Shown: positions 8,900 through 59,717 of the stretch, piece by piece
Position numbering within the stretch: the stretch's first letter is position 1
Layout of the letters: the number at the start of each line of letters is the position of its first letter
Origin: Pogonophryne albipinna
Taxonomy: Eukaryota > Chordata > Actinopteri > Perciformes > Artedidraconidae
DNA: 64,000 nt
Assembly (NCBI GenBank): GCA_028583405.1
Contig: CM053252.1
Location: forward strand, 37,192,740-37,256,739
Direction: 5' to 3'
Made by a program: the position numbers and the translations under genes
The notes under the pieces: generated by a model
Database searches by the model: none
What the model saw: only the letters and a program-made list of their open reading frames with translations
Told to the model about the DNA's origin: nothing

Positions 8900-11150
8900 G
8901 ATCCGTGGGTGAATAATGTCAATCACCACAGTGTACACATTAACAATAACTACACTATTTTGGCAGTGTAACAATTAAACAAGAACTACACTCTTTTGGC
9001 AGTAACAATTAGATAAATAATAAACTGTCAGACTGACTGAAGACAAACAAACTATGTTCAGCAATCAATCTGTTTAGTTGACTCTGGGTGACATGTGGCA
9101 ATTTAAAAAAATTGTTTTTTGGCTGTTTAGATGGTGTTACTCCATCTGGGTCACTGCCGGTGGTTGAGACGGTGGGGTCTTTTGCGACTAGTTTTATAGC
9201 CTCATGCAGTGGTGTAGTGGGGATTTTTTTACTGGGGGGACGCTATTTTAATTAGGTCATCCCAAACAATGCCACACAAGTGCGCACGCGCACAGTGCAC
9301 TCACAAGACGGGCAGACAGGTCCACAGAAACTACCGGTATGCTTAGTCCTACTTTAGTTACTGTACTGCAAAAAGCAGACGGCGGTGCGCTCAACACACA
9401 CACAGACTCAAAACCATGGACACACTGGCACATAAGTTACATAAACAATGTATAGACCTAAGTTGCATAAATGCTTGAGCTACAGTATTGCAACTAAGCA
9501 GACAGCGCTGCTTCTCTCTCTCTATCTCCACTTTCAAAATCTATTTAAAACTCATAACAAACAAACACAATTCCCAAAGTTGTCCTGAAATTAACTTATT
9601 AAATAAACGAAACGAAAAATATAGCCTACTTATGCAAACAATATTGAATCTGGACTTGAAATTATTCTGATTAGGCCTAGCCACATTGCAAATAAGCAGA
9701 CAGCGCTGCTTCACACACACACTCACACACACACACGCACGCGCACACACACACACACACATCCTTGTGCAACTCAATTGTGGGGCCCGAACTGATTTTA
9801 CCCAATTGTGGGGTCCACCCTTTCCAACTATACTAGACCTCCGTAAAAAATCAGGCAATATAGAAAAAAAATTAGAATCACAAAAATCACTTGAAATAAA
9901 CATAATTCCAAGCTTTTGTTATCACGCTAGTTTTTTACCCACTTAGTGGGGCTCAGTTTCTAGCGGTCAGCACTTATGAGGTCCATTATACACACACACA
10001 CACACATATTTCTAGTTTTCATATCTTGGAAGGGATCAGACACACACATATTTCTAGTTTACATATCTTGGAAGGGATCAGAGTTACTATAGACACATTA
10101 TTGAGTTGGATGGACTTTCCTTGTTACCAGGGTAGGAATTTCACGGCGACCACGGTGGCCATGGCCGTTGTTGCCCCTCGGTCTGGCCGTGATGCCCCGA
10201 AAATAATTTGTACGTGCTACAGCCACCATGGCCTTTGTGCCCCGCGCACTATTAACATCTCAAAGTTGCTTTAAAGGCGTCAGAACAGTGGTCTGGTATC
10301 TGAACTGCATTATGCTGCGTTCACACCGGACGCGATGCAAATATTTGCATCGCTCTAATTTCACCGTGGCTGTCAGCTGTGTTTACTTCTGTCATTCAAA
10401 CAGGACGTGCTGGAGGAGGGGGGGAGGGGCTTATACCCATGAACTTACTGTGATTTAATTGTAATACACGTTTCAAAATGATGCCGAAGAAACAACATAC
10501 TGATACCGGTTAGTAAAAACCATGAATTAATGCTTTGGCAAGTCTGCAGACAAGACGGCAGGCGAAAAACCTTTTAAAATGCGTCTTTTCTGAATGGAGA
10601 TCGGATCGACCAGGCTAAACTAACGTTGTATATGCTCCATCCGGACTCACAACAACATGATACAGACACAGATACAACAGCGACTGTATTCACCATGACA
10701 CAGACAGTCTGTGTTTTGTTCATGTTTAACTTTTGTCCAGTTTCTGAACAGATATGAGGAGCTGTGAGCTCTGAGTGCTAACAGCTAACGGCTGAGGTTT
10801 TGGTTTTCTGATCCAATGTCAGGCTGAGATCCTCACCGCTGATTGGCTACCGCGAGAACGCGTCACACAAATTTGACGCTAGAATTGAAAAAATTGATTA
10901 AAGAGACTCTCGTACACAACCACACACACTTTTGCATTTCAAAGTATTGCTTGTTCATACAGTTGAATGTTTGAGCTTCACTGTGCCCTGCTGAATGATG
11001 TATGTGCAGAGTTGGACCCTTGAAGGCTATTTCTTCTGCTCTGAAATGGAATATATTTGTTGCATATTAATAGATTTTTGAATGGGAGAAGTAGTAGATA
11101 GGAAACATACCCAACACTAATTATTAATAATAATAATTAATATAAACGCT
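8900..11150. other. intergenic, fragments of repeats only
   Basis: No gene is visible. There is a CAGTGGTGTAGTG motif near 9207 like hAT ends, without a partner. A near-direct repeat containing CATATTTCTAGTTT lies around 10000-10080. A region at 10309-10900 starts GCGTTCACACCGGACGCG and ends with a related GACGC motif, resembling a small MITE. None is strong enough to call. Confidence 0.4.
9712..9760. repeat. imperfect (CA)n microsatellite
   Basis: This CA-rich run is interrupted by CT and CG steps. A short related CA run follows near 9991. Confidence 0.8.
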
Positions 11151-14700: not shown

Positions 14701-15465
14701 GAGGAGTTAAGTCTGCATTGTCTGGATGAGGGGACCCGACTAGGAAAGCTAATATCAATAGATACGGGGGCATGGTCTGAGATAACAATGCTATGGTAAT
14801 CACGAGTGGTCCTCTGATCGAAAGTAATTATCCAAGAGAAAAAAATCTATCCGAGAGTACGAATGATGGACGTGTGAAAAAAATGAAAAGGCTTCAACTG
14901 ACTGGGATTTAGCTCTCCATGGGTCGAATAAACCTAAACTAGATTTATATGTGTCAAGGACTTTAGCTGACTTGGATAACGCCAGAGGCTTAGAGGAAGA
15001 CCTGTCTAGGGAGGGGTTTTGAGTTAAATTGAAATTGCCGCCGATAATTAAGTGGTCATCAACTTTAGGGAGTGAGGAGAAAAAATGTTTAATAAATGTA
15101 TCATCATCCCATGTTGGAGCATAAGCACAGGCCATAACCACCGGCATACTACACAGTCTACCAGAAATAATTACAAATCGACCATTTGGGTCCTCAATGG
15201 AGTTTGATAACTCAAATGGAACATTCTTGTGTATAAGGATAGCCGCACCTCTTGCCCTAACTGGGAATTTAGAGTGAAATACATCCCTTATCCAAGGTCG
15301 CTTGAGAAGGCCAATCTCTGAGGAACGAAGGTGGGTTTCTTGTAAAAAGAAAATATCACCCCTAAGTTGCTTTAAATGAGTCATTACCTTATTACGTCTG
15401 ATGGGCTGGTTGGCACCCTTCAGGTTCCAGGAGATAAAGCGAAGATTCTTACCCTGAGTCGTCAT
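11788..15465 (-). pseudogene. L1-like ORF2 (endonuclease, reverse transcriptase), frameshifted
   Basis: The endonuclease part (15465-14800) begins FISWNLKGANQPIRRNK and has FLQETHL and SYSRIDFFLL. The reverse transcriptase has GKTPGPDGFSVQFF, YRPISLLNVDLKILSK, SLDAEKAFDRVEW, TRQGCPLSPLLF and LSLYADDLLLYI. The C-terminal part has a Cys/His cluster (CNRCKQSPANHSHMFCLC). Frame changes occur between about 14800 and 14650, near 14410, and near 13460 between the RQGCPLSPLLF and YADD motifs. The endonuclease motif normally reading GGDFN is GGNFN here, so a catalytic-site Asp appears lost as well. Confidence 0.85.
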
Positions 15466-16304
15466 ATCATAAGGAGACGAGGGACACTAACTCTCCCATG
15501 GCTGACGTGACTCCCGAGCCAAAGGAAAAGGGGACAAAACAAAAACACATAACAAGAAAAACACACATACAAAAAAACAAAACAATAATCAACAACACTC
15601 CCACCCCCCATTCCCTTATACAAACCAAGCGCGACCACATCTTCACTCCCAACAGGGTATCCCTTTCTGCTTCCATAACCTACTCTTACTCAGAGGTCAA
15701 CCAGTTAAACAAATAAAAATATCCCACATTTTAAAGAACATATATGATTACAGTGAAGTAACATTAGTCCTCACCTTTAAACAAGCCGTCAATAAGTTTG
15801 CCTAAACAATTACCTCAACAAAAAAAAACATCCCACTTAAGAAACTCTACTGCAGGATAGCATATGGCAAGAGATAAAAGCAAACAAAAAGAGGCAATAA
15901 TAGTAATAATTAAATAAAGTGCCTGATATAGGATAGCCTAACCGTCTCATTGGAACAAACATAATATGTTTACCATCGTAATCAGAACAGAAAAAATGGT
16001 GATAAAATCACATGCGGCGACCACACCGTGCAATTGGAAGTAAACAAAGTCCCCATCGTAACAAAGAAAAATACATGGAGTCTATACACGTTGCTCCCGG
16101 AAAATACTGAGAGTAAGCACAACTCACGCGCCGACCCGTTTCCATGGACACCACGCCGCTCGTTCAAGGTGACCGCATAGCAGTGAGTCCACGGGGCAGC
16201 ATGCAGTAGCAGGAGCAGACGGCTTCCTCCAAGCAGACGGAGGAATACAGTCTTTTGGAGAAACCCTCAGTAGAGGGTGGCCGCCAGGAGCACCATACTG
16301 CCCC

Positions 16305-17195
16305 CTACTCTTTGCCCATCATCCGCTCGTTGTAGAATGCGTGCGCGTCCTCCGGAGTCTCAAAAGTGAACGTTCCATCCTCAAACGAGACTTGCAAGCG
16401 AGCGGGGAAGAGAAGCCTGAATTTCACTCCTTTCTGGTAGAGGGCTTGCTTGATTTTGTTGAAAGCAGCTCGTTTCTTTGCAGTGATGGCGCTGACGTCT
16501 GGGTACACTCGCAGCGATGTGTCGCGGTACTTAAGCTCGTGTTGTCTGGTCCAGCGAAGCACCTTCTCCCTCTCTTGAAAACGATGAAAGCATATCACAA
16601 AAGGCCTGGGTCTACCTCCCGGTCCAGGTCTGGGAGCTAGTGAGCGATGTGCTCTCTCGAGCTCCGGGGGTTTGGAGAGGACATCGGGGCCGAGGCTTCC
16701 CATCAGCAGGTCGGATATGAACTCGGTCGGGTCCCGGCCTTTTTCACTGCCCTCGGGAATATTTATTATCCGGAGGTTGACTCTACGGGACCGGTTCTCC
16801 ATGTCGTCGAGGCGATCTAGAAGAGACTTATTCTGGGTCAGTAGTGTTTCCACTGTTTTTTCCGTGCTTGTTATGCGCTCAAAGTTATCCCCCGCCAGGG
16901 TCTCTGCAGCAACGAGGCGGTTATTAAATTGATTCACCGTCTCGCGGAGTGCGTCCACCGAGCTCTGCAAAGGTTTGACAGACTCCTGGATTAACTCAGA
17001 CATATCTTTCCGGAGCGAGGCCCGTTGCTTCTCCAGTTCAGAAACCAGCTGGCTCATTGAAAAGGTGTCCGGTGTGTCGCTAGCGCCGGAGCTTGCAGCC
17101 GCCATTTTAGCAACTTTGCTAGCTACAGGAGTCGCACCGCCACGAGTAACTGGGCAGTTCAGCGTATTGCTCGCTTTAGATTTAGAACCACTCAT
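16305..17195 (-). CDS. L1-like ORF1 RNA-binding protein (296 codons)
   Basis: This ORF encodes the nucleic-acid chaperone of L1-type LINEs, which packages the element RNA. After a Ser/Ala-rich start comes a heptad-like coiled coil (about residues 45-140, with FSMSQLVSELEKQRASLRKD and later NKSLLDRLDDMENRSRR). It is followed by an RRM-like part (VNLRIINIPEGSE) and a basic C-terminal domain (ERAHRSLAPRP, PFVICFHRFQEREKVL, GVKFRLLFPARLQV). It starts with a true ATG and is uninterrupted. An ~840-bp spacer separates it from ORF2, longer than in mammalian L1. Confidence 0.88.
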   Translation of the reverse strand: MSGSKSKASNTLNCPVTRGGATPVASKVAKMAAASSGASDTPDTFSMSQLVSELEKQRASLRKDMSELIQESVKPLQSSVDALRETVNQFNNRLVAAETLAGDNFERITSTEKTVETLLTQNKSLLDRLDDMENRSRRVNLRIINIPEGSEKGRDPTEFISDLLMGSLGPDVLSKPPELERAHRSLAPRPGPGGRPRPFVICFHRFQEREKVLRWTRQHELKYRDTSLRVYPDVSAITAKKRAAFNKIKQALYQKGVKFRLLFPARLQVSFEDGTFTFETPEDAHAFYNERMMGKE

Positions 17196-17336
17196 TTCAC
17201 GACTGAATTGAAGTTATAACTGTAATCCGTCACTTTCCCGAATGAATTGTGGTATTTACAGAGATATATTAAAGTTAAAGTGCAACCGGGAGACCTCCTC
17301 CGTGCGACTTTCTCCTACAACATCACTACCGGAAGT

Positions 17337-17532
17337 CAGATATTCTATTTTTGATGTAATACTTAACACCTCTCCAGTCCCTATTTGATAGGGCTTGTGG
17401 TTCAGCAGAGATGCAATCCTCACAGGCCTCTTTTCCTGAAACCTGATTCATAAATATCCATCTTCTCAAGTGTCGTTCCACAGCAGCAATTTCCTCAGAT
17501 GTCCAGATGCGCTTCACAACCATTTCTTTCCC
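17337..17532 (-). pseudogene. terminal exon of the SET-YR gene: SANT/Myb-like module
   Basis: The acceptor CCACCTAG precedes GGAAAGAAATGG. The phase (one base carried over) matches the upstream exon. It encodes KEMVVKRIWTSEEIAAVERH followed by RWIFMNQVSGKEACEDC and ALSNRDWRGVKYYIKNRI, a Trp-rich helical module similar in pattern to SANT/Myb domains. The L1-like LINE cuts the exon after YYIKNRIS and adds three codons and a stop. Skipping the LINE, the reading frame continues past 11453 for ALRRKLV and then TGA, which is the probable original end. Confidence 0.72.
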
Positions 17533-17829
17533 TAGGTGGACATTAAAGAACATGTTATAGGTTTAAGAAGCCTAAGAGTCAGTATCATACAATTATGAAT
17601 CTCTCTTAGGTTTACCACAAGGTGAGTTTCTGTTTATTTCCTGCTTCTTTACACATACTCTCTCCAGTACAGGTTAGCTCTGTGTGTTAACGATGCTAAT
17701 GTTAACACAGACCATATTACTTCCAGAACACGTCTCACATTCATTGATCCATAGCAATAATTGATGAGGCACTGTCAGAGAATAAATTAAATGAATTGCT
17801 AGCATGAATATATGTCATATGGTTTACAG

Positions 17830-19470
17830 CAGGCATCCTCAAAGTCCGGATTTTGGTCCGGATCCGGACCGAACCGCAACTGTCTCTGGACTCTGAGCAA
17901 ATGATACTTTTCATATGTATTATCTGTATTATCTGTGTTATCTTTGAGACAACGCACCGAGTCAAAATTCTCCGCTATGTCCACTACAAACAGCGCTCTG
18001 CATGTACGACTGTTCCACTGTCTGTGTGTGTCTGTCAACGCATTGGTCCAATCACATTCAGCATCCCGTCAGCGTTTTTTCCCCCCACCAACAGTCTGCG
18101 AATCAGAGGCACAGTAGGGCGGGTGGGAAAAATGCGTGTGTGTTTAAAAAAAAAAATGTCAGAGCGAGAGTTAACAGCTCATCTAGTTGCATCTGCACTG
18201 TAGCTAGTAGCCTAGTTTCACCTACCGGGGACCCCGGGGTGGCAACTGCCACCCTAACAATAGGCCTTGCCACCCCAGCTGCCACCCCAGTTGGCAGCTT
18301 TGTTTTGAATGAAAAGTTGTGGCTCATCGGACATTTATGAGAGAAAGTCTCTAATGTCCGAGTGCAAGTGAATTCAGCACAAGACGCACGTCTTGTAACC
18401 CCTCCCCCGGCCCTGGCGCGAGCGTAGAAATATGATTGGCGGCGATTTCATTTGAACGGTACGGCGCAAAACGAGAAGCATTCGGACCCAAGTACTGAAG
18501 GAATGAGGTATTTGCGGTCTACAATGACAGAGAAGAGACTGTCAAGTTTGGCTGTACTCAGCATTGAATCAAAAAGCTGTCGATCTTAATACGTTTGTGA
18601 GGCGTTTTGCTGAACAAAATGGTAATCGCCGCATTCAGCTGTAATAGACATGTCAACTTGATGCTCTGCTCACGGATGAGCATACAAAACTGTTAAGATG
18701 ATGACCTTACGTGTGTAAATATATTTTTTTCTTTGTGGGGGTCTGCCCCCAAAAAACTGTTTTAAGTCTTGAGAAAATCAAATAAGCTGGTGATGTAAAA
18801 CTACACTGCCCAGCAAAAAAAAAGTAACCACTTTGATTTAACTAGGCCAGTAGGTAAGGAAATTCCACTGGATAATAACTGAAGTATAAAAGAATGCATG
18901 ACTAAAGTGATGGAGACCATGTTTGAAGGCAAACAAAAAGAGGAAATAACAGGTCAAATCAAGCAAATCCCTCTCTCAGATTCCACAGCAACCAGAAGAA
19001 CATAAATACTGGCTGGTGATTTGATTAATCAGCTTTGTGATGGAATACAAAATGCACAGTGCATTTCCTTAGCTGTGGATGAGTCCACTGACACCACTGA
19101 CAATGCTCAGTTGCTGGTGTTTGTGAGTTTTTATGATGAGGCAAAGGGGGAGTTTGTTGAAGATGTGTTGGGCCTGACGAACCTCAGTGGACACACAAGG
19201 GGGAAGACATTTATAAAGCAATAATGGGAATGCTGAACGAAAGAGGGTGCAGCTGCCTTTATTCATAACTGTGCAGCTCTTACACTGCGACTCTGAGGGA
19301 TCAAGCACAGACACAATAACAATGAAAACTTCTGCATACAGATTATTTTAGTTTTTGCAATAAGAATCTTGTTGCAATTGTTTAAAAGTTTGAATGACCG
19401 TAATAAACGGACCTTTGTCTTATTAAAAAAAATAGTTTGGACCTTTAAGATTTGTATTTGAGTACCCCTG
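17830..19470. mobile_element. decayed hAT element with ZBED/GTF2IRD2-like transposase remnant
   Basis: The element begins CAGGCATCCTCAAAG and ends with the inverse of CAGGGGTACTCAAAT. It is flanked by a perfect 8-bp duplication GTTTACAG (17822-17829 and 19471-19478). On the plus strand at 19021-19224 lies a transposase piece containing NAQCISLAVDESTDTTDNAQ and VFVSFYDEAKGEF, typical of hAT proteins. An in-frame stop just before it and loss of the rest show it is dead. It sits in an intron of the SET-YR gene. Confidence 0.87.
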
Positions 19471-19655
19471 GTTTACAGTATTGTTATCAGAATTAGAAAA
19501 TAAAAGGTATTTTTCATGAAATGTTTGATTTGTCAAACTGTATAAAAAAGGGATTTATTTAAACGGATGCTGATTCATCACTCTGCGTTATCCTCTTTTC
19601 AACCTATTAAACAGGGAAACAATCTAACCCTCATTGTAGTCACTTTTCATCTCAC

Positions 19656-19766
19656 CTCTCTTTTTAGCTGACTTCTGGTGTTTTGTCAGGACCTTTCTTG
19701 TACTATCTGGAAGGGATGACATGCTGGCCTCACCTTCAGACTCTTCAGTGTCTTGTATTACGGCAT
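19656..19766 (-). pseudogene. SET-YR gene exon 10: 37-residue Ser/Glu/Lys exon, second copy
   Basis: The acceptor TTTATCCAG and donor GAGAG|GTGAG frame 111 bp, phase 1 at both ends. It encodes DAVIQDTEESEGEASMSS followed by LPDSTRKVLTKHQKSAKKR. It is a duplicate of the exon at 20256-20366 and can be included or skipped without changing frame. Confidence 0.72.
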
Positions 19767-20255
19767 CTGGATAAAGAAAACATTTGATTAGAAATATATT
19801 AAAGAGAGACACGGAGACTTTAAATATGAAGTAGTTGTTTGTAAAAGTCATAGGATCAAGATCATTGTCATTGTTGGTGCTAGTTATTTGTTAACCCCAT
19901 GACAGAATTATTGTTTTCTCATAAGAAGTATAGCTTGATTGATAATGTCAGATGGTCCTTTACTTATAATCAAAATATAGTAGTATCTTTATTTGGTTTG
20001 AGTTTTGATTCATTTGGTTATGGTTTCTATATATTCAGCATATTTAGTTAAAGTGCTAACATGAAGTACTCAATATAAATGTTGGTAAAAAAAACTAAAT
20101 TGAGATCATCTTGCTATTTTCTAATGAGTAAATGCATTTTTGTACTTTTCAGGTAATTCTTTCTAGAAAGTGAACATCATGGTGATCAGTGTCATAGCTA
20201 GACTTGAGGCACTGTCAGAGAATAAATTAAATGAATTTCTAGCATGAATATATAC

Positions 20256-20366
20256 CTCTCTTTTTAGCCGACTTCTGGTGTTTCGTCAGGACCTTTCTTG
20301 TACTATCTTGAAGGGATGACATGCTGGCCTCACCTTCAGACTCTTCAGCTTCCTGCATACTGGCAT
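20256..20366 (-). pseudogene. SET-YR gene exon 9: 37-residue Ser/Glu/Lys exon, first copy
   Basis: The acceptor GTACCTAG and donor GAGAG|GTATA frame 111 bp, phase 1 at both ends. It encodes DASMQEAEESEGEASMSS followed by LQDSTRKVLTKHQKSAKKR. About 48 bp next to it (20206-20253) recur at 17765-17813, a trace of the segmental duplication. The function of this acidic-then-basic segment is unknown. Confidence 0.72.
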
Positions 20367-20579
20367 CTAGGTACAGAAAATCGTTTTTACAGACAAGAGA
20401 TATGGACTCAAAGTCAGTAAAAGAGGACAAATTTCATGCATATTATCTTCTGTCATTGTGAAAGCAATCAAATTGCCATGATCAAGACTATTTGGTTTAT
20501 CAAACATGACTTTTTCATATTGATTTAGCTTACATTGTTCCATGATATACTGGTCAACTATGCAGGATATAATCCTCCC

Positions 20580-20870
20580 TCCTTTTTCAGACGCGGACTA
20601 GCCCTCAAAATAGTAGTGCAAAACCAAGCGGCAAACTCTGGGGCAGAGCCGGGAGGCCAATAAGGAAGTGCCACAAAATGCAGTTAATCTATTGGCCGAT
20701 AGGGGATGACTGCAGAAAGGAGCAATTTCCATAGACCCCCATGTTAAAATGCCCAACTTTACAGCAGAAAAAAACATGTTTCTAACCCTGGATGCAATAC
20801 AAATTATTCGGGATATAGTTAGATTCCACCTTAATGATTATTAATTGTTGAGTGAATTGTTTTATAACTA
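20580..20870. other. probable older interspersed repeat around the next hAT element
   Basis: The stretch with CATAGACCCCCATG and the following AAATGCCCAACTTTACAGC resembles a non-coding repeat common in fish genomes. It may continue after the hAT insertion to about 22250. I cannot define its ends. Confidence 0.35.
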
Positions 20871-20878
20871 GGGCTGCA

Positions 20879-21924
20879 ACAAACGACTAATTTGATAATC
20901 GATTAATCTATCGATTAATGAAGCGATTAATCGACTATTCGGACTATTATGCCTTACACAATTTCACAAACGCTCTTATTTAGCCATCAAATTTTAGATT
21001 TAGCTTGAGGTTGTTTTAGGCATGTGGAAACTAACAATGAAGACAATAAAGATGAATACTTGATTCAAAAATACATATTATTAAATTAACTAAACATATT
21101 TTGAACAAAATTAACATTGCTTTTTATTTAAATTAAATAAATTATATTTCACATCAAAAGAAACAACAGTGTTTTAAACAAATGGTATTAAATAATCTGA
21201 TGACAGAACTGTAAACAGAATAGCTGAAACTTTAACATAATAAATAACTCAGTTACCTCTAATCATTAACCCATGTTTGTATAATGTAATTAACTCCATG
21301 TGTTGCTGCTAGCATACATAACACCTGACGTGGAACCGTTACTCGTGGATGGGGCTACAGAGCTACTAGAAAGACAGTCGAACCCGGTGCATTCCTCCGT
21401 CTGAATGTGGAGCACTTTTGATAAATGTTTAGACAAATTGCTCGTGTTACCGCCCTTACATGCTAAACTCTTATTGCACTTTTGGCAACGAGCATTGTCC
21501 ACATCGAGACGGGTAAAGTTTAACCAAACCTCGGAGCGAGTTCTCTCCGCCATCTCCGCAGTGTGTTGCTGCATGTAGCAGCTGAGCAGCTGCGTGTGTG
21601 TAAACTGCCCGCCCCCTCGCACACAGACGGGGGAGAGAGATCTCGTCTGATCGAAAATACATCATAGACGCATTTGTTTGTCTTTTTGCATATTAGAAAC
21701 GAGTTGGCGACACTAAGACTGCGATATAATGCTTATGTAGCAATAATACATGACATATCTTTTTTAAATGACTCCAGTACCGATAAAAAGACCAATAACG
21801 TGGAGCTTAACGGCGTGTTAAAACACACATGATGACGTCACCAACGAATCGACAACTGAATTAGTTGGCAACTAATTTGGTAATCGATTTTAATCGATTA
21901 AGTCGATTAGTTGTTGCACCCCTA
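20879..21924. mobile_element. hAT element with AATCGATTA-rich termini
   Basis: The termini start TAGGGCTGCAAC and, inverted, TAGGGGTGCAAC. Both continue into ACTAAT and AATCGATTAA blocks. The flanking 8 bp TTTATAAC is duplicated exactly (20871-20878 and 21925-21932). The interior keeps only a BED-finger coding end on the minus strand, so the element is non-autonomous. Confidence 0.88.
21290..21553 (-). pseudogene. BED zinc-finger N-terminus of a hAT transposase
   Basis: From a plausible ATG (MAERTRSEVWLNF) the reading contains ARCQKCNKSLACKGGNTSNL and SKHLSKVLH. This is the Cys-x2-Cys ... His-x-His layout of a BED finger used by hAT transposases to bind terminal repeats. The rest of the transposase (RNase-H-like core) is missing. 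Confidence 0.7.
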
Positions 21925-22478
21925 TTTATAACGCAACCCTTTTATTCATATTGGGTCTTAAACTTCTTGCATAAATTAGGGCGTGGTCACGTTGATGGAC
22001 AGGTATGTGCCTCACTGTCAGCTAACAGCAACTTGTCCTCTCTGCTAGGCTACAACGTTAGCTAGTTGTAGTTACTGTACTTGACCCTTTTGCCGTGTTC
22101 GTGGTGATTGTGCCTTTTAGGGAATGTTGTTACAAAAACCAGACAATTAAAATGTCGTGCTGTGCTGTGGAGCTAGCCCCCTGCGGCTCCGTTAGCTCCG
22201 GGTGGCGGAGTCCGGCGTTATAACTGGAGATCAAGGAATGCAACGAAACATGGACTTGGTTCGTATATATAATATGTCTATGTGCAAAACCCAGAGATGG
22301 CAGGTTTTGAATACGGCAACGGTTACCCCATATTTGTTTATGTCAAATCAATTCTCAAGTTTCAAATGATAAATGCCGTATTAAACTAGCCGTCAGGTAA
22401 TGCACTGCAGTGGACTGGTTCTGCATTAAATGGTGTGTGTTGTTGTGTTGTGTGTTTTGTTATAATAGCTTAACATAC

Positions 22479-22520
22479 CTTCCATGTCCTCTTGGTAACA
22501 GCCATCCATGTCAACAGTTT
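22479..22520 (-). pseudogene. SET-YR gene exon 8: 14-codon micro-exon
   Basis: The acceptor TCATTTCAG and donor GAAG|GTATG bracket 42 bp, phase 1 on both sides, encoding ETVDMDGCYQEDME. The phase fits the exon before (ends AACG|GT) and after (starts at ATGCC following AG). It is small, but the exact borders and phase support it. Confidence 0.6.
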
Positions 22521-22785
22521 CTGAAATGATAGAAAATGAACTAATGAGTTGAAAAGCTGAACATTTGTGATATACCTATGAATATCAACTGATTGGAAAA
22601 GTAATACATAAACAGCTCACCTAAGGATACAAATAGTTGGAATAAAATATTGTAGTTACATTTTAAAAACAAACTCCAAAAACGAAAATGTATTTTTATT
22701 CTGAAAGAGTATGATTTAAAGGTTGACAATGATGTCCCGTTTTAAATTGTATTTAAAAAAACAAAATATATATTGGATATTATAC

Positions 22786-25700
22786 CGTTCACATCAATGT
22801 GGATCTCATCCAGATTCATCCCTTTGTATTCGCCTATTCGTCCCTGTTCCAATGCCAGCAGAACCTTGTTTATTTTAGCAAGCTGGAGGGTTCCTTCTGG
22901 AAGGCGGTAGTGCTTTCGGTGGACTTCGATGTTATGCCCAAGGAAATCTGCTAACTGGTCAAGTTCTGTTGTCTTGAGATTCAGAACGGTTGAAAGAGTA
23001 GCAATGTGTTTCCTGAGTTTCGTTGAGGTCAGCGCTTTTGGATTCTTGATATCTTTACATTCACGCACAAACTGTCTCAAGCAATCAGAACCCCTGAGGT
23101 GATGGACAGAATTTGGCAACGCAAACAAGAAGACGTTTTCTTTGAGTACCCCACATTCTTCTCGCTTTTGAATCAGTGTCAAGTGATTCCCTCATCAGCG
23201 GGGTGAGGAGTACTGGAACTTTTCTTCCTCTCTTTCCAACTATGGTTATCCGGACAAAATGGTTGCAAAGCTTCTGTTCTAGTGTTGTTAGTGCCAAGTT
23301 TACATCCTCATGCGTTTCCAATAAGTCTCTGGATATATACGCTGAAACGGCCATTCTGGATACTTCTCCTTCTCTCCGGCGGTTGAAGAGGATCACTTGA
23401 GCCATGGTGACTTTGGCCAAGTCTTTCCAGTTAGACAGCGATACCTCTTCTTTTAGGTCCTTCACGCATTCAAGCTGTTTCTCAGATAAATGAGAATGAA
23501 GATGTTGGACGTCTTTTGTGAATGGAAGGAGTTGAGGAGAGTTCCACTTGGACTGTTCAAGTTGAGTTAGCGCTTGGCTTGCAATGTCAAATTTCCAACT
23601 TTCTCTGTATAGCTGCGCAAATTCCTCAGCATCTTTGGCAGTTTCTTTATCGTTGGACTTCATCCCTTCAGACTTGAGGAACATGGCCAATGAAAGCAAG
23701 CTGTGCCCAACTTTGCGGGCAAGAGATGGACGTTGATATTTGCCAGTGTCATCACTAAAACCAGCGAGGCATCTTGCAGCATTTACAACATCGCCATACC
23801 TGTCAGGCTTAATAAGTTCTTTGATTGTCTTCTTCACGGTCGTAACTTCTTTAGCTGCCAGCAACAGTCGACCCAGCTCCCTCAGTTTTTGTCGGATGTG
23901 TTGAAGTTGGCTGCTTGAACAATCTGTAACCAAACTGTCGAATAAATCTGTCTTCCTTCACCATCCATCCATCCATCCATCTTCTTCCGCTTATCCGTGG
24001 TCGGGTCGCGGGGGTGGCAGTTCCAGCAGAGAGCCCCAAACTTCCTTTTCCCTGGCGACATCAACCAGCTCTGACTGGGGGATCCCAAGGCGCTCCCAGG
24101 CCAGCGAAGAGATATAATCCCTCCACCTGGTCCTAGGTCTACCCCTTGGTCTCTTCCCAGCTGGACGTGCCTGGAACACCTCCCTAGGGAGGCGCCCAGG
24201 TGGCATCCTAACTAGGTGCCCGAACCATCTCAACTGGCTCCTTTCGACGCGAAGGAGGAGCGGCTCAACTCCGAGTCCCTCCCTGATGACCAAACTTCTC
24301 ACCTTATCCCTAAGGGAGACACCAGCCACCCTGCGGAGAAAACCCATCTCGGCCGCTTGTATCCGGGATCTCGTTCTTTCGGTCATGACCCATCCTTCAT
24401 GACCATAGGTGAGGGTAGGAACGAAAATGGCCCGGTAGACAGAGAGCTTTGCCTTCTGGCTCAGCTCCCTTTTCGTCACAACGGTGCGGTAAAGCGACTG
24501 CAGTACCGCTCCCGCTGCTCCGATTCTCCGGCCCATCTCACGCTCCATTGTTCCCTCACTCGAGAACAAGACCCCGAGATACTTGAACTCCTTCACTTGG
24601 GGTAAGGACTCATTCCCTACTTGGAGTGGACAGTCCATCGGTTTCCTGCTGAGAACCATGGCCTCAGATTTGGAGGTGCTGATCCTCATCCCAGCCGCTT
24701 CACACTCGGTTGCGAACCGATCCAGTGAGTGCTGAAGGTCGCAGACCGATGAAGCCATCAAAACCACATCATCTGCAAAAAGCAGTGGTGCAATCCTTAG
24801 TCCACCGAACTGCAGACCCCCTCCCCCATGACTACGCCTAGAAATCCGATCCATGTATATTACAAACAGGATTGGTGACAAAGCGCAGCCCTGGCGGAGG
24901 CCAACCCTCACCGGAAATGGGTCCGACTTACTGCCGAGGACCCGGACACAGCTCTCGCTTTGGGAGTACAGAGATTGGATGGCCCTGAGTAGAGACCCCC
25001 TCACCCCATACTCCCGCAGCACCTCCCACAGTAACTCCCTGGGAACCCGGTCATACGCCTTCTCCAAGTCCACAAAACACATGTAGACCGGATAAGCGTA
25101 CTCCCAGGCCCCCTCCAGGATCCTTGCGAGAGTAAAAAGCTGATCCGTCGTTCCACGACCAGGACGGAATCCGCATTGTTCCTCCTCAATCTGAGGTTCG
25201 ACAATCGGCCTGACCCTCCTTTCGAGTACCTTAGAGTAAACTTTCCCGGGGAGGCTGAGTAGTGTGATGCCTCTGTAATTGGCACACACCCTCTGATCCC
25301 CCTTTTTAAAAATGGGAACCACCACCCCGGTCTGCCACTCCTTCGGTACTGTTTCCGACTTCCACGCAATGTTGATGAGACGTGTCAACCATGACAGTCC
25401 CTCAACACCCAGAGCCTTCAGCATTTCTGGGCGGATCTCATCCACCCCCGGGGCTTTGCCACTGTGGAGTTGTTTAACAACCTCAGTGACCTCCCCCCGG
25501 GAGATTGGTGCCGATCCCCCGTCATACTCCAGCTCTGCCTCTAACATAGAGGGCGGAGTTGTCGGGTTCAGGAGTTCCTCAAAGTGTTCCTTCCAACGCC
25601 CCAACACTCCATCAGTTGAGGTCAACAACGTCCCATCCTTACTGTACACAGCTTGGATGGTTCCCTGCTTCCCCCTCCTGAGGTGTCGGAGAGTTTTCCA

Positions 25701-27196
25701 GAACAACTTTGGTGCCGCCCGAAAGTCCTTCTCCATGTCCTCTCCGAACTTCTCCCACACCCGCTGCTTTGCCTCGGCCACGGATGAGGCTGCTGCCCTT
25801 CGGGCCTGTCGGTACCTTGCAACTGCCTCGGGAGTCCCCCGGGATAACAAATCCCTGAAGGCCTCCTTCTTCAGTCGGACGGCTTCCCTGACCACTGGTG
25901 TCCACCAGGAGGTTCGAGGGTTACCGCCCCTTGAGGCACCTAGGACCTTGAGACCACAGCTCCCCGCCGCGGCTTTGGCAATAGAGGCTTTGAACACCGA
26001 CCACTCTGGTTCAATGTCCCCAACTTCCACAGGAATGCCTGAAAAGCTCCGCCGGAGGTGTGAGTTGAAGGCCTCCTGAACTTGGGCCTCCTCCAGACGT
26101 TCCCAGTTCACCCGAACTACACGTTTGGGCTTACCAGGTCTATCTAGAGGCTTCCCCCGCCACTCGACCCAATTCACCACCAGATGGTGATCAGTTGACA
26201 ACTCCGCCCCTCTCTTTACCCGAGTGTCCAAAACATACGGCCTCAGGTCCGATGATACGATAACGAAATCGATCATGGACCTTCTGCCTAGGGTACTCTG
26301 GTACCACGTACACTTATGAGCATCCTTATGTTCGAACATGGTGTTTGTTATGGCCAATCCATGACTAGCACAGAAGTCCAGTAACAAACCACCACTCCGG
26401 TTCAGATCAGGGGGGCCGTTCCTCCCAATCACAGCAATCGTAATCTTGTCTTGATGCATATGAGTTAAGAACTTCCAGTATGCGTCACTAAATCCATCTG
26501 GAGCTGGTTCAGCAAAAGCACATAATGCTTGGACTCTTGATCTGCCTTTAGATCTATTACCTTCGGGTTTGAATTTGCAGGATTGAAAATGGCGCCACAA
26601 ATCCTTCCTTGAAAACAAACCATTGCAATAGATACAATGCATAAATTCTTTTCCATCGGTATTTCTGCGGGGTTGCTTGTACGGAATAAGTTTTCCTTCT
26701 CCGTCCTCCAAAACTTGACTGTTGTGTCCAAAGTTCCCTTTATTTCTGATGAAATCTAATTGCAGTCGTCTTTCCTTGGACTTTATTGGGAAACTCATTG
26801 CTTTTGCAACTTCTACTTTATCGTTGTGTTTACGTACCAGGTGTCTGGAAATTTTTTGAACTTGTAGTTCACAATATTAGCAGTGGTGTTTTTATTATAT
26901 TTTCTTGATCCATCCTCTGTCTTCATTACTGCATTCACAAATACGGCCGGCTCGTTATCAGGGGGCATTGAGTCACTTGCTTTGTTTGTTGTATGTGACT
27001 GCTCCATGTTCCCTTTAGTTACTGCTCTGCAATGTGAAATGTTTTTGCTTTCCCTGGATGACTGACTGGACTTCTTGGTAATTGGTATTTCAATGCTGCC
27101 CTCACTGTCTGTGCTTTCTCTTTCTCTGGGACTTGGAACGTATTCTTCTTCGCTATCTGCCGTAGATACATCTGACCCTGCAAGATCCGTTTGAAT
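22786..27196 (-). pseudogene. SET-YR gene exon 7: fingers and tyrosine-recombinase-like domain, interrupted by a LINE
   Basis: The exon opens after CTCAAG with an acidic Ser-rich stretch (DVSTADSEEEYVPSPRE). A degenerate finger follows (SRHLVRKHNDKVEVAKAM in a shifted frame near 26845), then a C2HC finger HCIYCNGLFSRKDLWRHFQSC (about 26580-26640), then AEPAPDGFSDAYWKFL. After the LINE, the YR-like part has HIRQKLRELGRLLLAAKEV, an Arg box LFNRRREGEVSRMAV, a Lys strand IVGKRGRKVPVLL, LTSTKLRKHIATL, LADFLGH and VHRKHYRLPEG. These fit the R, K, R-x-H, LGH and nucleophile Tyr of tyrosine recombinases. Frame is lost near 23180 and between about 23890 and 23957. It ends at donor AACG|GTATAA. Proteins of this fold cut and rejoin DNA; whether this one did is unknown. 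Confidence 0.75.
23961..26433 (-). mobile_element. 5'-truncated RTE/Rex3-like LINE inserted in the YR exon
   Basis: This is the same family as 2055-5229. It lacks the first ~198 codons of the ORF and begins at the codons for VIGRNGPP. The rest is open through to the same stop and a GATG tail. It sits between host codons for ITIAV and KED. Only about eight residues differ from the complete copy over ~810 codons. The reading frame enters it from the host sequence without a stop, giving one chimeric ORF (26798-23991) of C2HC finger plus partial endonuclease and full reverse transcriptase. Confidence 0.93.
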
Positions 27197-27607
27197 CTTG
27201 AGAACAAAAAACATAGTTAATACTCGCCCTCAAAATTATTGTTTATTATAGCTTGAACTGACTACACTTGTTATCATTAATTCATATTAGGAAGGGTTGG
27301 CTGAAATTCAGAATACTTTGAGTTGAAGTCATTTTACAGATTTCAATATTCTATTAAATGTTGTCATAACTGATTGGATGTGTCAAATTCAGATGAAAGC
27401 TTAAAAGACAACAACCAGTAACACATCTTTAAAGACACTTTTGGAATTAGTATTGAAAACATTGAACATAATTACAACTTAAATGTAAGCACTACCTAAA
27501 ATGCATTGTCAATATGCATGCCTGGCACTCTAATAAGTGAAACTGTTGTTGATTTTGGTTGGTGCTACCCTTTAAGTGACAACATGGAAGAGTAAAAAGT
27601 GGCTTAC

Positions 27608-27712
27608 TGGACGGCAACAGGCTCTTCTCTGCCTGAGGGAAGCTCTTTCAGACTTTGAGGTCGAAGGGCACTCCGAACCTTCATCACTCGAAAAATCTGA
27701 AACTCTATCCAT
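27608..27712 (-). pseudogene. SET-YR gene exon 6: Ser/Arg linker
   Basis: The acceptor TTTTGCAG and donor CCA|GTAAGC frame 105 bp, phase 0 at both ends, encoding MDRVSDFSSDEGSECPS, then TSKSERASLRQRRACCRP. This is low-complexity linker with no domain. The first codon is ATG, but an internal exon fits better because phases match on both sides. Confidence 0.62.
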
Positions 27713-27849
27713 CTGCAAAACAAAAAAGATTTGTCATTGAATACTTATTTATTTATGTTTGCATTCCAATACAATCAACTGTAAAGGGAGGACCTTTGAA
27801 ACAGTGCAGAGAAAAAAAATGAACTTGTATTCAAAGTATCTGAGCCTAC

Positions 27850-27957
27850 CAGAACATCTTCTGTTATCCTGAGCTTCGGATTGCGTTCATCACAGTTTGG
27901 AATAACATCTTCAGTGTCAGGATAATCCACTAGAGAGTACCCTCTGACAGTAAAAAG
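27850..27957 (-). pseudogene. SET-YR gene exon 5: linker
   Basis: The acceptor TTTCTATATAG and donor CTG|GTAGGC frame 108 bp, phase 0, encoding LFTVRGYSLVDYPDTEDVIP, then NCDERNPKLRITEDVL. No domain is recognised. Confidence 0.62.
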
Positions 27958-28233
27958 CTATATAGAAATAAACACAAAACAGTATGCCTTAAAATAGTAA
28001 ATAAGTCATATATTGACATTAATAGGTTGCCTTCTGTAAAATGTGTTTCTGCAACAGCACTTTCGGTTAAAACAAATTGCACAGCATGTTCTAATACAGG
28101 GGTCTCAAAATGTAATCCATAAATCTGTCCATATTTTTCATATCTTTAAAATTACTTGAAATCATTACCGAAGAAAAGTAGATTAACAGACAAAAAAACT
28201 GATTGTGGAGACAGCTCTATATTACTGAATTAC

Positions 28234-28353
28234 CTCGGTAGAAGAACGGTCTGTTGTGGATGTTTTGAGGGAAGACAACTCTTTGAGGGAAGTCAACTCT
28301 AAGGGGAAGCTCTCCTCCTCAACTGCCTCTGGATAATACTGCTCATTCGTCAC
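28234..28353 (-). pseudogene. SET-YR gene exon 4: acidic exon, copy 3
   Basis: The acceptor AAGTTCCAG and donor GAG|GTAATT frame 120 bp, phase 0, encoding VTNEQYYPEAVEEESFPLEL, then TSLKELSSLKTSTTDRSSTE. It is almost identical to 29324-29443, 1090 bp away. Confidence 0.75.
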
Positions 28354-28559
28354 CTGGAACTTAGATAAAACAAGAATGCACTAAGAAGATAGTAAACATT
28401 TATGTTGAGATATTCATGAGTTGCCACAGTTAGCTAAATCAAAAACAGTTTCTGAAACTAGATTTTGATCAAAGCAAAGTCCTGGCATTATTCATTACTG
28501 TGGTCTGAACATATCATAAAGGGGTTGCAATGGATTGCATTAAAATTACCCCTTTCAAA

Positions 28560-29150
28560 CATGCACAGGCTCAGAGGGTGTCGAATGATGCCTACAACAA
28601 CTTGAGTTTAGAGACTAAAAAGGTGTTGCACAACTATTTAGAAATCACTTAAAAATATAACCAAACGGGAGGGCCCCATGAGGACAAGACTGGAAACAAG
28701 TGTGTGTGACAGGTTTCTGTAACAAGTCCCATCAAGGCTAAGGTAAACGATCACCGTTTGAAACATGCTTATGCTCAAATAGTATAAACATATGCCCACA
28801 ATAACTTGAGTTTAGACACTTAAAGGTTTTGCCAACATATTTTTAAATGACTTCAAGTTAAAACCAAACGGGAGGGCCCCATGAGGACAAGACTAGAAAC
28901 AAGTGTGTGTGACAGGTTTCTGTAACAAGTCCCATCAAGGCTAAGGTAAACGCTCACCGTTTGAAACATGCTTATGCTCAAATAGTATAAACATATGCCT
29001 ACAACAACTTGAGTTTAGACACTTAAAGGTATTGCCAAAATATTTTTAAATGACTTCAAGTTAAAAAAAACGGGAGGGCCCCATGAGGACAAGACTAGAA
29101 ACAAGTGTGTGTGACAGGTTTCTGTAACAAGTCCCAACTAGGCTAGTCTA
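28560..29150. repeat. intronic satellite, about 201-bp unit, first block
   Basis: Three units recur, with the GGGAGGGCCCCATGAGG block near 28668, 28869 and 29071. Each unit also contains a TGTGTGACAGGTTTCTG block and an AACTTGAGTTTAGA block. It lies in the intron between two copies of the acidic exon and was duplicated together with the exon. Confidence 0.88.
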
Positions 29151-29323
29151 AAAATATGAAACCAATTCAGTTTCCTCAGTCAGATCGTTCCAAATCACCC
29201 AATTAGAAACGGGATTTAAGCTGTATCAGAAAAAGAGATCGGAAAAAAAGTTCCTGTCTTGGTATGGGGACTACATAGTGAAAGGCACAACATAATGAGA
29301 TTGTGGAGACAACTCTGAATTAC

Positions 29324-29443
29324 CTCGGTAGAAGAACGGTCTGTTGTGGATGTTCTGAGGGAAGACAACTCTTTGAGGGAAGTCAACTCTAAGGGGAAGC
29401 TCTCCTCCTCAACTGCCTCTGGATAATACTGCTCATTCGTCAC
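29324..29443 (-). pseudogene. SET-YR gene exon 3: acidic exon, copy 2
   Basis: This 120-bp exon, phase 0, has the same borders as copy 3 (donor GAG|GTAATT), except the acceptor reads AATTTCCAG. The product differs from copy 3 at one residue (SSLRTS instead of SSLKTS). The downstream intron is also duplicated nearly base for base for over 200 bp. Confidence 0.75.
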
Positions 29444-29649
29444 CTGGAAATTAGATAAAACAAGAATGCACTAAGAAGATAGTAAACATTTATGTTGAGA
29501 TATTCATGAGTTGCCACAGTTAGCTAAATCAAAAACTGTTTCTGAAACTAGATTTGGATCAAAGCAAAGTCCTGGCATTATTCATTACTGTGGTCTGAAC
29601 ATATCATAAAGGGGTTGCAATGGATTGCATTCAAATTATCCCTTTCAAA

Positions 29650-30227
29650 CATGCACAGGCGGTGTAGAATGATGCCTACAACAACTTGAGTTTAGAGACT
29701 AAAAGGTGTTGCACAAATATTTAGAAATCACTTCAAGCTAAAACCAAACGGGAGGGCCCCATGAGGACAAGACTGGAAACAAGTGTGTGTGACAGGTTTC
29801 TGTAACAAGTCCCATCAAGGCTAAGGTAAACGATCACCGTTTGAAACATGCTTATGCTCAAATAGTATAAACATATGCCCACAATAACTTGAGTTTAGAC
29901 ATTTAAAAGTATTGCCAACATATTTTTAAATGACTTTAAGTTAAAACCAAACGGGAGGGCCCCATGAGGACAAGACTAGAAACAAGTGTGTGTGACAGGT
30001 TTCTGTAACAAGTCCCATCAAGGCTAAGGTAAACGATCACCGTTTGAAACATGCTTATGCTCAAATAGTATAAACATATGCCTACAACAACTTGAGTTTA
30101 GACACTTAAAGGTATTGCCAAAATATTTTTAAATGACTTTAAGTTAAAACCAAACGGGAGGGCCCCATGAGGACAAGACTAGAAACAAGTGTGTGTGACA
30201 GGTTTCTGTAACAAGTCCCATCAAGGC
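29650..30227. repeat. intronic satellite, about 201-bp unit, second block
   Basis: Three units match the first block. A fourth is split off at 31316-31530 by the hAT insertion at 30228-31315. This block therefore had one unit more than the first. Confidence 0.88.
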
Positions 30228-31315
30228 CAGTGGCGTTTTCTCCTGGAGGCCAAGGGAAGCCAGGCTTCCCCTGTTTTTTCGGATTGTATTATAATTTTAA
30301 TAAATAAATAAAAACACTTCGTTTAGTTTCGGAAATTCTTTGTTGTGTGTTGCTGCCGGCCCGTCTCTCCCCCATTCTCATTGAGTATTTTACAAAGAGT
30401 GAAACAGCTCCCCTCTAGATGTTATGGTGAAACAGTAGATTGCACTCTCTGTTGCGAGAGGAGGCCAGCCGAAATTGGCTTCCCTTGGTGAAAAAAAATT
30501 GAGGGATTGACCAATCAGACAAGGTTCACGTCATGCCTCTGCCAACCTGTGATTGGTCAGGGCCATGCCAAGGGAAGCCAGAGGCGGCTGGCTTCCCTTG
30601 CCTCACAATCCAATCAAATCGCATCAATTTAGTGTTGCAGTGACGCGTCCTAAAACCCGGAAGTAAGCTGCGCTCGGTTTCCCTCGACAAAAAAGCAATG
30701 AGATTTCTCCATAGGATTTTGGAAGATAGCTCGAAATAAGGTCAGTGGAAAACGAACCTGTTAGATAAATGCACGTTTTGTTCAGTCGGATCATATCCAC
30801 ATGTCTACCCTACTTTTATAATTTTCGAATCATAAATCTAATCGATAGAAGATAGATAGCGCCACTGCACCACACTCACCGCCGTTAGAAAGTAGCAAGC
30901 AACTGAAGCAAGTGCAATTATGGAGGGTGGAGATTTGGAGTATTTAATCAAACAGAATTGTACTAAACTTCCGCTACAGCAGCAACAACAAATACAATCT
31001 GATGACAGGTCAATGCCCAAACTGGAGCTGTGTACAACGAGGAAAAAAGGAGCGAATCGGACGTAAAACGTCTCCTGATTTAGTTTATGAATGAATGCTT
31101 ATTAGAGTTTGGGCTGGAGAGTGCGTGCGGACCTGTCGGTTAGATAACAGGCGTGTGTAAGTCCTGCATCTGTATGATACAAATGTGTGTAAAATGATAC
31201 CGGGTGCTGTAATCACTCATCTGGTTACGTTATTACATTGACCACCACCCCCCCGACCCAAAAGAAAGGACGTATTATTGGCTTCCCCTAATTTTTTCCC
31301 CACGCCACGCTACTG
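30228..31315. mobile_element. non-autonomous hAT element, 1088 bp
   Basis: The ends read CAGTGGCGTTTTC and, inverted, CAGTAGCGTGGCGTGG. A perfect 8-bp TSD ATCAAGGC flanks it (30220-30227, 31316-31323), and removing the element restores the satellite unit exactly. The interior has GGCTTCCCTTGG-type repeats but no transposase. Confidence 0.92.
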
Positions 31316-31530
31316 ATCAAGGCTAAGGTAAACGATCACCGTTTGAAACATGCTTATGCTCAAATAGTATAAACATATGCCTACAACAACTTGAGTTTAG
31401 ACACTTAAAGGTATTGCCAAAATATTTTTAAATGACTTCAAGTTAAAACAAAACGGGAGGGCCCCTTGAGGACAAGACTAGAAAGAAGTGTGTGTGACAG
31501 GTTTCTGTAACAAGTCCCACCTAGGCTAGT
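31316..31530. repeat. satellite unit split off by the hAT element
   Basis: This continues the ~201-bp unit interrupted at 30227. It is followed by sequence also found near 29140-29320, so the whole duplicated block ends here before exon copy 1. Confidence 0.85.
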
Positions 31531-31706
31531 CTAAAAATATGAAACCAATTCAGTTTCCTCAGTCAGATCGTTCCAAATCACCCAATTAGAAACGGGATTG
31601 AAGTTGTATCAGAAAAAGAGATCGGAAAAAAAGTTCCTGTCTTGGTATGGGGACTACATAGTGAAAGGCACAACATAATGAGATTGTGGAGACAACTCTA
31701 TATTAC

Positions 31707-31805
31707 CTCAGTAGAAGAACGGTCTGTTGTGGATGTTTTGAGGGAAGACAAGTCTAAGGGGAAGCTCTCCTCAACTGCGTCTGGATAATACTGCTCAGTC
31801 GTCAA
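31707..31805 (-). pseudogene. SET-YR gene exon 2: acidic exon, copy 1 (shorter)
   Basis: This 99-bp exon is phase 0 with acceptor GTTGCAG and donor GAG|GTAATA, encoding LTTEQYYPDAVEESFPLDL, then SSLKTSTTDRSSTE. Relative to the other copies it lacks seven codons in two in-frame deletions, so frame is kept. Its length difference suggests selection for frame before the gene died. Confidence 0.72.
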
Positions 31806-31862
31806 CTGCAACTTAGAAAAAACAAGAATGCACTAAGAAGATAGTAAACATTTATGTTGAGA

Positions 31863-32620
31863 CAACCCGTTGCTGCAGATACACGCTTTACAACATCAGG
31901 AGGATACGTCCCCTCCTGACCCTGAAAGCCACGCAGGTTCTGGTCCAGGCTCTCGTCACCTCACGCCTAGACTACTGCAACTCCCTCCTGGCTGGTCTAC
32001 CTGCATGTGCCATCCGACCTCTGCAGCTCATCCAGAATGCAGCGGCTCGTCTGGTCTTCAACCTTCCTAAATGTTCCCACACCACGCCGCTCCTCCGCTT
32101 CCTTCACTGGCTTCCAGTAACTGCTAGAATCCACTTCAAGACAATGGTACTTGAGTACCATGCTGCGAATGGATCTGGCCCTTCCTACATCCAGGACATG
32201 GTTAAACTGTACACCCCAGCACGTGCACTCCGCTCTGCATCAGCCAAACAGCTCGCTGCACCCTCACTGCGAAGGGGACCCAAGTTCCCATCAGCAAAAA
32301 CACGTGGGTTTTCTATCCTGGCTCCAAAATGGTGGAATGAGCTCCCCATTGACATCAGGACAGCAGATAGCTTACACACCTTCCGGCGCAGACTGAAAAC
32401 TCATCTCTTTCGACTCCACTTCGAGCGATAGAATTACTAACAAAGCACTTATATACTAATAAAGGACTGGCTTATCTAAAGCCAGTTGAGTAGCACTCAA
32501 GGCTCTATGAAACCTGATGTACTTATATGATTCTGTTTTCTTCAAGTTTGTATCTTGTTGGTCGATCGCACTTATTGTAAGTCGCCTTGGATAAAAGCGT
32601 CAGCTAAATGCAATGTAATA
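31863..32620 (+). mobile_element. L2 LINE 3' end (ORF2 C-terminus and tail)
   Basis: It is open on the plus strand from near the start, with VLVQALVTSRLDYCNSLLAG, AARLVFNLPKCSHTTPLL, HWLPVTARIHFKT, and near the end PKWWNELPIDIRTADSLHTF and RLKTHLFRLHFER, then a stop near 32429. These are hallmark C-terminal motifs of vertebrate L2. The tail ends in the GTAAGTCGCCTTGGATAAAA and GCGTCAGCTAAATGCAATG blocks of L2. It interrupts the duplicated intron between TTGAGA and TTCATGAG. Confidence 0.92.
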
Positions 32621-32934
32621 TTCATGAGCTGCAAACATTAGCTAACTGACAAGCAAGCAAGGGCATGCAAGTTTTGTCAGGTGAAATCTGTCAAGTTCTG
32701 CATTTAATTAAATACATCATCAATTAAAGTGTCACTCCCCCACTTGCTCATAGAGGTAGCAGACCAAACTTATAGCAAATCTAATGAATTCTCCAATACC
32801 AGTATAATTTGCCACATCTGAACCATCTAAAATGACTTGTTAATCGAACAACAAATTAATTAGGTACTATAATTATATGGAGGGAAACAAAAACATGTAT
32901 TAAATCACGTGTTACTTTTGAGTTATATGTGTAC

Positions 32935-33150
32935 CTGTTTGCGCCAAGGCCAGTCTGCATCCCCATAATTGTAGGATATTTCTTCCTCTGGGGCGATGTC
33001 TCTAAGGGCAAACAGGCAGAGATGTGGCATCCCATCAAGGACAATGGTTCTCATCTTGCAGTTGGCCGTTTTGTGGTCATCGTTTACAAGCCTACCCAGT
33101 GACTTGTCTTCAACCGATGCATCAAGATTTAAATAAATAGAGATTGAATG
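32935..33150 (-). pseudogene. SET-YR gene exon 1 seen here: C-terminal half of a KMT5A-like SET domain
   Basis: The minus-strand reading gives LDASVEDKSLGRLVNDDH, then NCKMRTIVLDGMPHLCLF, ALRDIAPEEEISYNYGD and WPWRKQ, ending at donor CAG|GTACAC in phase 0. The pattern GRL-N---NC, I--DG-PHL, A-RDIA--EE and Y-YGD matches the end of SET domains of the KMT5A/SET8 type, which methylate histone H4 Lys20. The usual Asn-His-Ser is Asn-Asp-Asp here. The frame meets a stop at 33151-33153 and no convincing acceptor or upstream exon is visible, so the 5' part is missing, decayed or outside my reach. Confidence 0.72.
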
Positions 33151-54709: not shown

Positions 54710-54855
<146 letters not shown>

Positions 54856-59645: not shown

Positions 59646-59668
59646 CTCTTTATTGCGGACAGGTTGAG

Positions 59669-59670
<2 letters not shown>

Positions 59671-59716
<46 letters not shown>
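59671..59716. repeat. (GT)n microsatellite, 23 units
   Basis: A pure GT run inside the nested hAT element, directly after the minisatellite. Confidence 0.95.

Positions 59717-59717
<1 letters not shown>

Follow-up and report, generated by a model that had tools for sequence, protein, structure and literature searches.

A SET domain joined to a tyrosine recombinase in a probable (TG)n-associated transposon family of fishes: reading a broken copy in Pogonophryne albipinna

What kind of locus joins a KMT5A-like SET domain to a tyrosine recombinase (YR) in the genome of the fish Pogonophryne albipinna? The 64-kb window analyzed here (contig C11, positions 37192740-37256739 of the 1.07-Gb assembly; C-numbers below are contigs of the same assembly) was initially annotated, from its letters alone, as holding an eleven-exon minus-strand gene that fuses the two, either a domesticated recombinase coupled to chromatin marking or a mobile element carrying a SET domain. 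We assign a probability of roughly 0.88 to the following answer: the window holds a dead copy, interrupted by a long interspersed nuclear element (LINE), of a (TG)n-targeting, Crypton-type DNA transposon, which uses a tyrosine recombinase and bears a captured KMT5A-like SET domain. Computation shows that many predicted proteins carry the fusion, that recent copies are dispersed, that the recognized ends adjoin (TG)n, and that an empty site exists; it also gives a modeled recombinase fold and points to constraint on SET.

Along the minus strand, on which all features of this copy lie, the window presents in order the C-terminal half of SET, linkers, zinc fingers, recombinase and, past several small linker exons, a C-terminal exon. 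In tblastn searches, all ten fused fish protein queries matched SET, then fingers, then recombinase, and nine of the ten also matched the C-terminal exon; because ten fused proteins match the blocks in order, their occurrence together in the window is not due to chance. The exon for the C-terminal half of SET (32935-33126; GRLVNDDH ... YNYGD) is matched by all ten queries and by Pfam SET (PF00856, E = 4.5e-9), bearing out the KMT5A-like SET end of the initial annotation; it runs into a GT donor, and no AG acceptor is recognizable before its homologous part. Five linker exons with AG/GT borders follow, all of them phase-0 open frames within 31805-27608: acidic linker exon a (31707-31805), its duplicated copies a' (29324-29443) and a'' (28234-28353), linker exon b (27850-27957) and linker exon c (27608-27712). 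The stretch 26430-27196 holds acidic linker d together with a pair of zinc-finger-like motifs, as judged from tblastn of relatives and from the sequence. The tyrosine recombinase exon (22786-23913) is identified by 231 protein relatives, by overlapping open reading frames (ORFs) and by the fold predicted for P0001, a close relative. A short exon after it (22479-22520, AG/GT) encodes ETVDMDGC.QEDME, a peptide also present in annotated protein P0008, and two repeat-type linker exons, at 20256-20366 (DASMQEAEESEG...) and, as a second copy, at 19656-19766 (DAVIQDTEESEG...), likewise encode peptides found in P0008, which is a Gymnodraco protein. The C-terminal exon (17326-17531), with a conserved helical domain and a stop, rests on its sequence and on tblastn to P0015 and the nine fused proteins. 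Directly beyond it, at 14800-17213, lies an L1-like LINE, recognized by eye from ORF1-like and endonuclease-like frames.

This copy is dead and not an intact gene. It retains half a SET domain, the first half not being found in the 64-kb window by tblastn with the ten fused queries at E up to 0.01. A LINE at about 23940-26430 (minus strand, borders approximate; RVT_1 at E = 2.6e-37 in ORF 23991-26876) splits the finger/recombinase exon, and it is bracketed by the homology of relatives, which in tblastn ends near 26388-26441 and restarts near 23894-23945. Near 26890, ahead of the first finger, the frame changes and an in-frame stop (TAA) occurs, and a frameshift near 23176 divides the recombinase between the overlapping open frames 23085-23957 and 22742-23191. 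Of the exon series first proposed, the order on one strand and the five phase-0 linkers thus hold, whereas the gene itself is broken. The nearest relative of this copy found in the same genome is one C3 copy, at 90% identity. Possible candidates for its own ends are (CA)n arrays, at 54711-54852 on one side and near 9744-10006 on the other.

The fusion is common among predicted proteins. A search for YR relatives gave 231 hits (120 listed), and 45 of these proteins served to build a YR profile. A SET-domain protein search restricted to lengths of about 465-1480 residues returned 246 proteins; among the 120 listed, the profile detects the YR region at least partly in 106, and the region is nearly whole in 78, so that predicted fish proteins do join the two parts, as the initial gene model supposed. 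Judged by their names, the 78 near-whole fusions represent 37 teleost genera, among them Brienomyrus, Alosa, Carassius, Silurus, Oryzias, Betta and notothenioids. In a third search, with a snail YR query, SET was matched in 19 of the 117 new proteins among the 120 listed of 164 hits, and no mollusc protein among those listed matches carries SET. Among the 19 are proteins of the sea urchin Strongylocentrotus (P0282, P0293) and of the sea cucumbers Apostichopus (P0256) and Holothuria (P0269), whose parts follow the same order. The element is predicted to encode one spliced protein of about 1000-1500 residues, namely an N-terminal SET, an acidic linker, two zinc fingers, recombinase and a helical C-terminal domain, in which the linker between SET and fingers is variable, acidic and often built of repeats.

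Copies of this arrangement are dispersed in the P. albipinna genome, the younger ones lying within TG microsatellites of several chromosomes. Sixty-two YR matches merge into 51 loci, which were paired with a set of 102 SET matches (150 of 180 SET candidates were scored). At 23 of the 51 loci the nearest SET is on the same strand and no more than 20 kb upstream, where about 0.05 would be expected by chance, and a chance neighborhood of SET and YR was rejected on this comparison; one locus has SET downstream, none has it on the opposite strand, and at 27 no SET was found. Twenty regions around SET copies, with six extensions, fall into three groups. Identity is mostly about 99% among the nine copies of group A; among the five of group B it mostly exceeds 97% and reaches 99.8%, with one piece at 94%; and among the five of group C it is about 85-99%, with one piece at 79%. 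Copy C58 fits none of them. Complete copies measure about 8 kb, and others, enlarged by minisatellites, reach 15 kb or more. In group B, a 24-residue in-frame minisatellite stands between the YR and C-terminal exons (L028:5835-8204).

Group A has a peculiar composition. All nine copies keep the SET exons (one with a stop), and YR is missing from the six that span SET to the 3' end (C8, C5, C13e, C16a, C3b and C19), a call that excludes C1 and C551, which run into N, and C10, whose end was not reached; the middle of these elements holds minisatellites. They look non-autonomous yet carry a SET gene, and are presumably moved in trans. SET without a recombinase match is what one would expect if SET and recombinase were two separate genes of one element that gene predictors have fused, and it is also true that linker length varies and that the fusion is seen in predicted proteins. 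We nevertheless regard two separate genes as unlikely: the SET exon in the window runs into its splice donor without a stop, the order and strand of SET and YR are constant, and near-whole fused models recur across the 37 teleost genera, with fused models in echinoderms too.

Where two copies with 5' ends were compared, their identity stops at a (TG)n array, past which their sequences are different. Five defining 120-nt end pieces, searched against all copies, recognized the 3' end of group A in six copies and its 5' end in two, the 5' end of group B in two, and the 5' and 3' ends of group C in two and one, respectively; a further group A 5' end in additional sequence brings the total to 14. 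(TG)n adjoins all 14 in the same orientation, in one case with a few extra bases. Five of these ends are the defining pieces and nine are independent; a second, internal match in C16c is not counted as an end. Only 21 (TG)n arrays of at least 18 nt occur in the 255 kb compared. C8, C16a and C1b are flanked on either side by (TG)n, oriented alike; the copies lying between two arrays are a group C copy at C1:10187392-10195722 (8.3 kb), a group A copy at C8:699757-707793 (8.0 kb, with eight near-identical copies elsewhere) and the group A copy C16a on C16. The ends thus show the short direct repeats without long terminal repeats that mark Cryptons, with only short imperfect inverted arms, and the insertion specific to microsatellites that marks some CryptonV families. 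Weighing against this account, three older copies, all of group C, show neither an end piece nor an array where the ends are expected, C11a and C8b on either side and C2 on the 3' side; their ends may have been lost. In group B, the C3 copy runs into N before its 3' end. GGAC/GTCC words are enriched in the five 120-nt end pieces (13 against 4.0 in shuffles, the motif having been picked after looking) and could constitute a possible binding site for the recombinase or the fingers.

The window itself supplies an empty site. Its positions 59200-59900 (plus strand) are a paralogue of the C16 insertion site, consisting of flank, (TG)22 and flank with no element. The 5' flank of C16a matches 59200-59669 at 93% over 476 columns, (TG)22 occupies 59672-59715, and the 3' flank matches 59737-59900 at 77% over 208 columns. 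The C16 flanks match a repeat family whose member in the window is uninterrupted; the array is thus present here with no element, and the element has its place inside the array. On its 3' side, the C19 insertion shares its flank with C16 (99%).

These observations bear directly on whether the fusion is a domesticated host gene, its recombinase immobile and its SET domain serving fishes as a chromatin regulator in the manner of primate SETMAR. SETMAR, also called Metnase, is a domesticated primate fusion with a mariner transposase. Gene models in many fishes and the constrained protein sequence of SET (see below) would fit such a gene, but constraint between groups is equally expected from selection on a transposon, dispersed copies mostly 97-99.8% identical have distinct flanks, an empty site exists, and the copy in the window, in a genome with 51 YR loci, has been disrupted by frame changes, a stop and an inserted LINE. 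Domestication is therefore very improbable. At the window locus, where the initial annotation had offered it as one of two readings, it was rejected on the lesions and the many copies. The other reading, a mobile element carrying SET, is the one favored by the dispersed near-identical copies, the ends at (TG)n and the empty site.

By its predicted fold, the enzyme is of the expected type. The predicted fold of P0001 matches Xer/Cre, which in this model is the catalytic-domain fold of tyrosine recombinases, and Phage_integrase is matched in Pfam among family proteins, once (P0288) above the Pfam cut-off; both results uphold the initial assignment of a YR-like domain, the fold having been predicted on a close relative of the window copy. 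The R, K, R, H and Y motifs, assigned by motif and not by superposition, are present in 71 of the 78 near-whole fish proteins, and the offset from H to Y is 9 in 76 of them; the first H of HxxR is replaced by T. Searched alone against PDB sequences, the YR alignment gave no match up to E = 1. DUF3504 was not matched in Pfam by seven proteins at E up to 1 or by four at E up to 5, and the Pfam matches of the window do not include it either, in agreement with the earlier remark that the motifs are not of the DUF3504 type. The C-terminal end, at first called SANT-like, is indeed kept in relatives, but two such ends found no SANT model in Pfam; one end found no relevant solved chain.

As in Cryptons, the YR is accompanied by neither a reverse transcriptase nor a DDE transposase in a six-frame Pfam scan of one complete copy. 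Tyrosine recombinases are also used by DIRS/Ngaro-type retrotransposons (PMC5753468). Since that complete copy has no reverse transcriptase in six frames, and the one in the window belongs to the LINE inserted in the exon, a retrotransposon of this type is extremely improbable. A viral origin was tried and rejected, the YR alignment giving 19 pattern matches and no relative against viral_contigs, and three proteins giving nothing in PHROGs.

The SET-bearing family behaves as a Crypton does and has its target preference in common with CryptonV, to which it is likened by description only. CryptonV, likewise a group of tyrosine-recombinase DNA transposons, includes families that insert specifically in microsatellites (Kapitonov and Jurka 2012, via PMC8869645). 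The title of that 2012 source names cnidarians, and the passage citing it mentions no SET, fingers or C-terminal domain (PMC8869645). Animal Cryptons are described as YR DNA transposons without C-terminal domain or terminal repeats; CryptonA and CryptonI resemble the fish family in the recombinase, the DNA-transposon mode, a proposed circular intermediate and non-autonomous derivatives, but are related to DUF3504, (PMC3212892); the fish family encodes SET, fingers and a C-terminal domain, is flanked by (TG)n and gives no match to DUF3504. SETMAR/Metnase likewise joins SET to a DNA-rearranging enzyme (PMC8327481); unlike it, the fish fusion is itself mobile and occurs in many teleosts. Nimaviral telomere-associated tyrosine recombinases also pair YR with a C2H2 finger in elements lying in simple repeats, but, compared by description only, they are viral, target (TAACC)n and are described with no mention of SET (PMC10871703). 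Retrotransposons with captured cytosine methyltransferases exemplify the capture of a chromatin-modifying enzyme by a transposon, there for DNA methylation and here with a histone-type SET (PMC5890265). A literature search, which covered open PMC papers only and not Repbase, found no SET-YR element. What appears to be new is the SET-bearing, (TG)n-targeting variant; tyrosine-recombinase transposons that target microsatellites are already known in CryptonV.

What might SET contribute? Its closest solved relative is KMT5A by sequence (about 6e-37) and SET8 entries by fold. The GRG, EY and YxYG motifs are mostly retained. The NH motif, typical of active SET domains and present in KMT5A, reads ND in 70 of the 78 near-whole fish proteins and VNH in none, whereas NH is kept in three of the four echinoderm proteins. 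Between element groups, over 64 SET codons, synonymous change is saturated at a nonsynonymous divergence (dN) of 0.16-0.33, and two pairs within group C give ratios of nonsynonymous to synonymous divergence (dN/dS) of 0.19 and 0.25 (C58 was excluded because of a gap); on these values the SET protein looks constrained. A catalytically active SET, writing H4K20 or another mark on donor or target chromatin and so aiding integration or escape from silencing, would accord with the kinship to KMT5A, the retained motifs and the constraint, but the ND of the fish elements speaks against it and leaves it somewhat doubtful. A non-catalytic tether that binds nucleosomes and brings the recombinase to chromatin is a tentative possibility, consistent with the absence of VNH despite a predicted SET fold and with nucleosome binding by SET8 (titles of 5hq2, 7d1z and 7xpx), but less readily with the other catalysis-linked residues that are mostly retained. 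Because SET looks constrained yet NH reads ND in fishes, we put tether and active writer at about even odds.

For the Crypton-type element favored here, mobility may proceed as follows. The element would leave its site, or copy itself, as a circle. In it a short TG core would link the two end arms, and it is this core that the recombinase would swap with a genomic (TG)n array; the fingers and the C-terminal domain probably read the end arms. In the most conjectural step, SET would dock the protein on nucleosomes, modify a histone near donor or target, or both, such that integration is favored or silencing delayed.

The history of the fusion is less simple than its distribution in fishes suggests. 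In a YR tree of 46 rows the SET-bearing fish proteins fall in one 26-row clade (96/95), which also takes in SET-less models, some of them truncated, and one frog; the echinoderm fusions are placed elsewhere. SET presence needs eight changes on this tree, and the sequences may reflect either an early capture of SET with losses or repeated capture. It is conceivable, at somewhat below an even chance, that these elements form an animal lineage of SET-in-recombinase transposons in which one protein engages nucleosomes and inserts into (TG)n, SET perhaps having been captured at least twice (ND-type in fishes, NH-type in echinoderms). If so, a transposon would bring its own histone-type module to integration, making chromatin-coupled integration directly testable; many fish genes annotated as 'uncharacterized' or 'KMT5A-like' would be explained as transposon genes; and a recombinase acting at (TG)n, together with a ready source of SETMAR-like fusions, would be on offer.

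Several family members carry further parts. The same SET type stands with a P2RX7_C domain in tree frog proteins P0182 and P0191, without YR, and in Melanotaenia P0159, with YR. Residues 305-367 of P0122 and P0129, between SET and the fingers, give a weak C1-like zinc domain match (PF00130, below cut-off). A SET-less YR relative from Saccostrea, P0251, has precomputed Pfam accessions that we take to denote BRCT-type domains. In several fish proteins, the linkers are built of coding repeats.

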